Shown here piece by piece: positions 37,296-38,388 of a stretch of DNA of 64,000 bases. Each line of letters opens with the position of its first letter. Within the stretch, counting starts at the first letter, position 1. This DNA comes from Gemmatimonadota bacterium (lineage in GTDB: Bacteria; Gemmatimonadota; Gemmatimonadetes; Gemmatimonadales; Gemmatimonadaceae), in assembly GCA_003134685.1 (NCBI GenBank), contig PLCA01000003.1, forward strand, positions 464,228 to 528,227, read 5' to 3'. The notes under the pieces were generated by a model. The model made no database searches and had not been told where the DNA came from. It saw nothing but the letters and a program-made list of their open reading frames with translations. A program made the position numbers and the translations under genes.

Positions 37296-37686
37296 ACGGA
37301 AGTCCTCCACAGGGTGGTGAGTGGAATACCTCTCCGTGCCAGGGAGAGGGATGTGCGCACGTGATCGAGCCATCCCGTACCAGCCCGATCATTTGCCCAA
37401 CATTCTGATTGCGTCGGCATTAATGCGGGTCGGGCCTCGAAATGTCAAGAACAATGTCGCGTCAGGTATCGTCAGCCGGGCGCCAGGTGGGGCTTGGCGA
37501 GCCGAATCCAGATCGTCGGCCGGGCTGGGCGGAAAGCAAGAGAACGAGTTTCGTGAGCGGGCAAGGTTGGTAGCTCACAACTCGTTCCGTTGCTGTTCCA
37601 GAATTGTCAGCCTGGGACCCCGCAACCGATCATTGCGCCGCCAACGCGGTAATCATAGAATGTGCCCCTAAGAGGAAACCAATAAC

Positions 37687-38388
37687 ATGAAGCCGATGTA
37701 CCTCGACGCTGTCGAGAAGCACGAGGCAGTTGAGCCGCACGCGACCATGTTCAGTCAGATGCGCGCTGCCGGGATTCCGATCCCCCAAATCCTGCATCTG
37801 TTCGCGTTCAAGCCCGAGCGAACCCAGTACTTGGCGGTCTTCACTCAGGGAGTGATGCGCGGCCAGTCGCCGTTGCCGCCCTGGCAGCGCGAGCTCATCG
37901 CTGCCTTTACTTCGAAGCTCAATCAGTGCCTGTTCTGAATTGGCTCCCACGCCGCGGTCGCGGCGGAGCTGCACGGGGATCGCGCTCTGATACAGAGCGT
38001 CCTGAATGATCTCGACACCGCGCCGATCTCCGACAAGGATCGGACGCTTTACGCGTTCATCAAGAAGATGGTACATGACTCCACATCGATCACTCAGAAT
38101 GATGTGGACATTGCGCGCAAGGCTGGTTGGTCCGATGAGGCGCTCTACGACGCGATAACGGTCTGCTCGCTCTTCCAGTTCTACAACAACTGGATCGATG
38201 CGACGGGAGTCGCGGACATGCCCGCGCTGGGCTACGAGATGTCCGGGCACAGACTGGCTACTCAGGGCTACGCATCCGAGCCCGCGCCGAAACGTCGCGC
38301 GGCAGTCAAGTCGTTGAAGAGCTCGTCCAAACCCAAGCGGAAGAAGGCGGCAACTCCGAAGAGAACGGGGCGATCGAAGAGATCTTAG
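37687..38388 (+). CDS. AhpD/carboxymuconolactone-decarboxylase-like protein with in-frame TGA (probable selenocysteine) at codon 84
   Basis: ORFs 37687-37938 and 38068-38388 are one open frame across TGA 37936-37938: ..LIAAFTSKLNQCLF-U-IGSHAAVAAELHGD.. Sec aligns to the second Cys of CxxC(xxxH); a SECIS-like hairpin follows. Confidence 0.8.
37943..37969 (+). promoter_or_regulatory. Candidate bacterial SECIS element
   Basis: GCTCC-cac-GCCGC-GGTC-GCGGC-GGAGC; two 5-bp stems, CAC bulge, GGUC apical loop starting 17 nt after the TGA. Confidence 0.65.

Follow-up and report, generated by a model that had tools for sequence, protein, structure and literature searches.

An in-frame TGA in a Gemmatimonadota genome very probably encodes the selenocysteine of an AhpD-like CxxU protein

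AhpD-like selenoproteins with a CxxU motif (COG2128) were described in 2005 from the Sargasso Sea, where 27 sequences were found (PMC1088965), and recur in the GOS data as a common family, 'AhpD-like 1', with 299 sequences (PMC2398784). TIGR01926 CxxU proteins are catalogued in a 2026 review, which also holds that aerobic bacteria seldom retain selenoproteins and lists the constraints on bacterial SECIS elements (bSECIS), namely a loop of 3–9 nt, an upper stem of 4–16 bp, a G in the first two loop positions and a loop located 16–37 nt from the UGA (PMC13188914). The catalytic residues of AhpD-type enzymes have been assigned as Glu36-Cys48-Cys51-His55 in Pseudomonas aeruginosa PA0269 and Glu118-Cys130-Cys133-His137 in Mycobacterium tuberculosis AhpD (PMC3141380). 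The gene reported here is a further example of the known CxxU AhpD-like selenoproteins and not a new kind; the reservation in our first-pass annotation that the family might not be new was well placed, given the 2005 report (PMC1088965). A search for literature on Gemmatimonadota selenoproteins, which most subscription journals lay outside, found none, and within the literature searched the lineage-wide occurrence in this phylum and the plasmid-borne Sec island presented below were not found described.

The window, i.e. the whole 64,000-nucleotide stretch of DNA that was analysed, contains at 37687–38388 (+) a single frame running from ATG 37687 to TAG 38386–38388. It encodes 233 residues (234 codons when the final stop is included, as counted at first pass) and its sole internal stop is a TGA at 37936–37938, codon 84. 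A mechanical ORF caller reported this frame only as two halves, 37687–37938 and 38068–38388. The first-pass annotation had rejoined them as one frame with a single TGA in between, and its coordinates, frame and peptide context (CLF[TGA]IGSHAAVA) were all exact. The locus is almost certainly one functional selenoprotein gene, in which UGA codon 84 is decoded as selenocysteine (Sec) to yield a product with the AhpD/CMD fold, as judged from sequence comparison. Its features are listed below.

37671..37675, + strand: putative RBS-like AGAGG, 11 nt upstream of the ATG, identified by eye.
37687..38388, + strand: predicted AhpD-like peroxidase-related (TIGR01926) selenoprotein gene, 233 residues with Sec at 84; has TGA-bearing homologues.
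37891..37893, + strand: Glu69 codon, equivalent to the AhpD proton-relay Glu118; E69 in 29/29 close homologues, spacing as in PMC3141380.
37927..37929, + strand: TGC codon 81, partner Cys of C-L-F-U; C81 in 29/29 close homologues.
37936..37938, + strand: TGA codon 84, predicted Sec, second position of CxxU; TGA in 50/61 and TGC in 11/61 homologues.
37943..37969, + strand: possible lower SECIS stem, GCTC (37943–37946) with GAGC (37966–37969) and a 3-nt bulge CCA (37947–37949), from RNA folds; predicted in this lineage only and not conserved.
37948..37950, + strand: His88 codon, equivalent to AhpD His137; H88 in 29/29 close homologues, spacing as in PMC3141380.
37950..37965, + strand: predicted SECIS upper stem-loop CGCCGC-GGTC-GCGGCG, 6 bp, loop GGUC at 37956–37959, 17 nt past the TGA; supported by a synonymous freeze at codons 88–93, covariation, bSECIS fit and absence from Cys homologues.
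38284..38385, + strand: Lys/Arg-rich C-terminal tail, residues 200–233, predicted disordered; closest relatives only.

Read through the TGA, the protein scored 95.4 bits against the TIGR01926 peroxidase-related enzyme model (cut-off 81.8) and 37.7 against Pfam CMD. The TIGR01926 match was unbroken over residues 5–172, in keeping with the first-pass claim of homology on both sides of the TGA. AlphaFold2 predicted an all-helical CMD/AhpD domain (pLDDT 84.8) with helices on either side of the TGA, and the best PDB matches of the model were 3c1l, 6k40 and 2pfx (TM-score ~0.82 normalised to the target; E 7e-9 for 3c1l). The TGA had been placed at the second Cys of the catalytic CxxC and falls exactly there (C81-L-F-U84), followed by H88. 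The resulting spacing of E69, C81, U84 and H88 (E-12-C-3-U-4-H) is that of PA0269 and M. tuberculosis AhpD, and all four residues were invariant across 29 close homologues, a set that counts the window gene itself. The basic tail, which had been singled out as meriting attention, is indeed peculiar to the closest relatives, being retained by L022, the nearest full-length relative, and absent from other homologues, and has pLDDT <50 at residues 200–232 of the AlphaFold2 model; no evidence of its importance was found.

In the mechanism that we propose, SelB and Sec-tRNA(Sec) would decode UGA codon 84, guided by the hairpin with a GGUC loop 17 nt downstream, and the product would be an all-helical AhpD/CMD-fold enzyme with the active site E69...C81-L-F-U84-xxx-H88. 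By analogy with AhpD-type CxxC enzymes, the selenolate of Sec84 would attack peroxide or another oxidised substrate, Cys81 would resolve the Sec84 intermediate to a selenenyl sulfide, and this would in turn be reduced by a thiol donor of the cell. From the same analogy we infer thiol/selenol peroxide reduction as the function. Appreciable, if lesser, probability attaches to a true selenoprotein with another role, for example as a thiol-disulfide adaptor or in acting on a sugar-metabolism or halogenated substrate. Position 83 is Phe where AhpD and PA0269 have His/Tyr, so the proton relay would be incomplete and the peroxidase activity of the protein may be weak. AhpD-fold relatives include the debrominase Bmp8, and in some relatives (L055, L062 and L059) the gene lies beside a cluster of maltose/trehalose genes (GH77, MFS, amylase, trehalase) as well as a DUF3179 gene with a SYCTVCRTG motif. 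Conservation of this neighbourhood does not however extend to the window or to other relatives, and the catalytic residues match those of AhpD. A search for a conserved operon partner in 12 relatives revealed none of general occurrence, nor any conserved neighbour hinting at a substrate.

Decoding as Sec, common to both of these functional readings, draws on the RNA downstream of the TGA and on the genes available to read it. Past the TGA, in the stretch suggested for folding at first pass, lies a predicted SECIS hairpin whose synonymous sites are frozen and whose base pairs show compensatory changes; its 6 bp stem, GGUC loop and 17 nt distance agree with the bSECIS constraints. Codons 88–93 (CAC GCC GCG GTC GCG GCG) displayed 93–100 % identity among the 29 genes; elsewhere in these genes residues that are fully conserved are mostly encoded by a mixture of codons, and GCC makes up around a quarter of Ala codons. 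In an alignment of 34 distinct sequences, pairing holds in 99 % of stem cells, with double-sided changes in two of the six stem pairs (C-G to G-U and C-G to G-C). Covariation scored higher than in all 500 shuffles and in every slid register. A further G-C to U-A exchange was present in the stem of L115. Stems of 6 bp or more whose loop lies 16–17 nt past codon 84 were found in 48/50 TGA genes and 0/11 Cys genes. Equally strong hairpins arose in 990 of 5000 synonymous recodings of this GC-rich stretch, such that the window sequence alone is not significant and the case for a SECIS element rests on comparison between genomes. A covariance model of the element gave a full-strength match in the window's genome to the AhpD-like gene only, and its weaker matches in that genome revealed no convincing TGA-bearing frame, as is to be expected of a model that captures the protein motif too.

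All four genes of the Sec machinery that the first-pass annotation had named for a search, selA, selB, selC and selD, are present in the window's genome (3.63 Mb, 98.4 % complete). The tRNA-Sec gene scored 69 bits, above the Rfam cut-off, with the anticodon given as tca by ARAGORN, and 5 nt before it ends a putative selD, recognised by its SelD-type N-terminus (CAGCASK). The selB match was above cut-off at 340.8 bits with its pieces joined, and selA scored 571.7 bits. We also noted a PF10262 (SelW/Rdx) gene at G000:C13:43228-43440 with a TGA in CxxU (EYCVVUNYQ) and a strong stem-loop ~22 nt later. This SelW-like gene is a second candidate selenoprotein of the genome, and the AhpD-like gene is therefore not the sole candidate. 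FdhA was sought as a further one, and no formate dehydrogenase match above cut-off was found. It is highly improbable that the UGA is read by a route other than Sec, whether by reassignment to Trp or another residue or by leaky readthrough, given that TGA is the natural terminator in several homologues (e.g. L024, L028 and L035), that the sole alternative residue at codon 84 is Cys, and that SECIS and tRNA-Sec are present.

Conservation of the TGA was pronounced and, together with the unbroken homology across it, lies far outside what chance would give. Among 61 homologues sampled from Gemmatimonadota, with actinobacterial plasmids as outgroups, codon 84 was TGA in 50 and TGC in 11 and no other codon occurred, so that each homologue sampled has Cys or predicted Sec at this position. 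All 29 of the nearest homologues carried TGA, and it was kept in independent environmental assemblies with 91–96 % identity to the window gene, these database relatives being Gemmatimonadetes/Gemmatimonadaceae assemblies. More broadly, a homologue at E <= 0.001 was present in 57 of the 148 genomes of the family, that of the window counted, and most of these matches have an internal TGA. 3' of the TGA, the window gene differs from near relatives mostly by synonymous changes (15 to 6 and 21 to 8), and purifying selection evidently acts on this part of the gene. Mapping of Cys and Sec to the tree indicated at least three changes between them, on a tree with long branches and unsettled bootstrap. 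There was in addition a deeper second clade of TGA-bearing AhpD-like genes (L113, L114 and L116–L122), class-wide and with the motif CFYUxxHHGAGLR. The conserved hairpin of this clade (ACGGAG-CGGGU-CUCCGU) is another one, equally far from the TGA.

These data bear on two further readings. A pseudogene or sequencing error, in which mutation or miscalling of TGC/TGT for Cys gave the TGA and left a broken gene, would accommodate the split made by the ORF caller and the existence of Cys homologues with TGC, yet it is barely credible in the face of purifying selection past the TGA, conservation to the C terminus of the domain and full Sec machinery in the genome. Sequencing error, which had been named in advance as a possible refutation, fails because 50 homologues, drawn from different genomes and assemblies, share the TGA. 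The other two refutations named in advance, a genome lacking Sec machinery and homologues lacking Cys or Sec at this position, were not borne out either. Scarcely any weight can be given to UGA as a true stop followed by a separate gene, yielding two polypeptides, for although an in-frame ATG at 38068 opens a 106-residue ORF, residues 85–127 ahead of it are conserved like the rest and include the active-site H88, and the TGA interrupts the CMD/AhpD helical domain. The pseudogene, sequencing-error, two-gene and code-reassignment readings were all rejected. Comparison between sequences shows a conserved UGA at codon 84, the SECIS element, the Sec genes, the AhpD/CMD fold and the spacing of the catalytic residues, and the lines of machinery, TGA conservation, SECIS and spacing all agree with the selenocysteine-containing AhpD/CMD-family redox protein originally suggested.

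Across the 148 family genomes, selA was found in 25/28 genomes with a close TGA orthologue versus 74/120 others (Fisher P 0.007, with genomes matched by hand and kinship ignored by the statistic). The three TGA-gene genomes in which selA was not found were G131 and G072 (72–76 % complete) and G043 (97 % complete). The TGA-bearing homologue of the last, L041 (G043:C71), has an intact SECIS hairpin, yet selA had no match in that genome. In two genomes, G016 and G031, the homologue lies immediately 5' of selA and selB, with tRNA-Sec and selD convergent to them. The former is Gemmatirosa kalamazoonensis KBS708, whose plasmid 2 (NZ_CP007130.1; G016:C4; 1,040,503 bases) carries a complete Sec island comprising the AhpD-like TGA gene (AhpD-U), selA, selB and convergent tRNA-Sec (selC) and selD.

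L051, G016:C4:448000-464000, and L101, NZ_CP007130.1:454000-461500: KBS708 Sec island, AhpD-like TGA gene with selA, selB, selC and selD.

KBS708 has two AhpD-U copies in total, one in the island and a second at 356440, and the sole selA match of its genome sits on plasmid 2. The selA genes of G016 and G031 scored ~100 bits under most other family members, which suggests transfer short of proving it, and plasmid-borne selA-like genes elsewhere numbered 149 records. We tentatively raise the idea, which we think rather unlikely as it stands, that in Gemmatimonadota the AhpD-like selenoprotein is a main cargo of the Sec trait, travelling with the decoding genes in self-contained islands (AhpD-U, selA, selB, selC-selD) that can move between replicons, with an antioxidant-type selenoprotein helping to spread and maintain the use of Sec in a largely aerobic phylum. 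AhpD-U genes are frequent in this abundant soil phylum, and their recognition corrects a systematic annotation error by which they are split or shortened wherever UGA is read as a stop. If AhpD-like selenoproteins are widespread in this mostly soil phylum, they would offer a useful counter-example to the view that aerobic bacteria seldom retain selenoproteins (PMC13188914), and the cultured KBS708, with two copies of which one lies in a Sec island, allows a direct test.

Compared with known systems, the window gene is closest in kind to the marine CxxU AhpD-like selenoproteins (PMC1088965, PMC2398784), with which it shares TIGR01926, predicted Sec as the second CxxU residue and a downstream bSECIS. 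Those sequences are metagenomic reads, whereas the window gene sits in a Gemmatimonadota genome whose Sec genes are identified, and it carries the basic tail of its nearest relatives. A CMD/AhpD fold and CxxU are common to AhpD_rel_CFYUT (NF041238) and CMD-like CxxU proteins (PF02627), but the window protein scored 48.3 bits against the NF041238 cut-off of 175 and is not a member of that family. The peroxidase-related structures 3c1l (Mlr4105), 2pfx, 6k40, 2prr and 2oyo share the fold (target TM-score ~0.8) and the catalytic motif, but have Cys where the window protein is predicted to have Sec and are 20–26 % identical over the structural alignment. M. tuberculosis AhpD is a weak overall structural match to the window model, yet it and PA0269 have the same catalytic spacing, E-12-C-3-C-4-H (PMC3141380), in which the window protein would replace the second Cys with Sec and has Phe in place of the relay His/Tyr.
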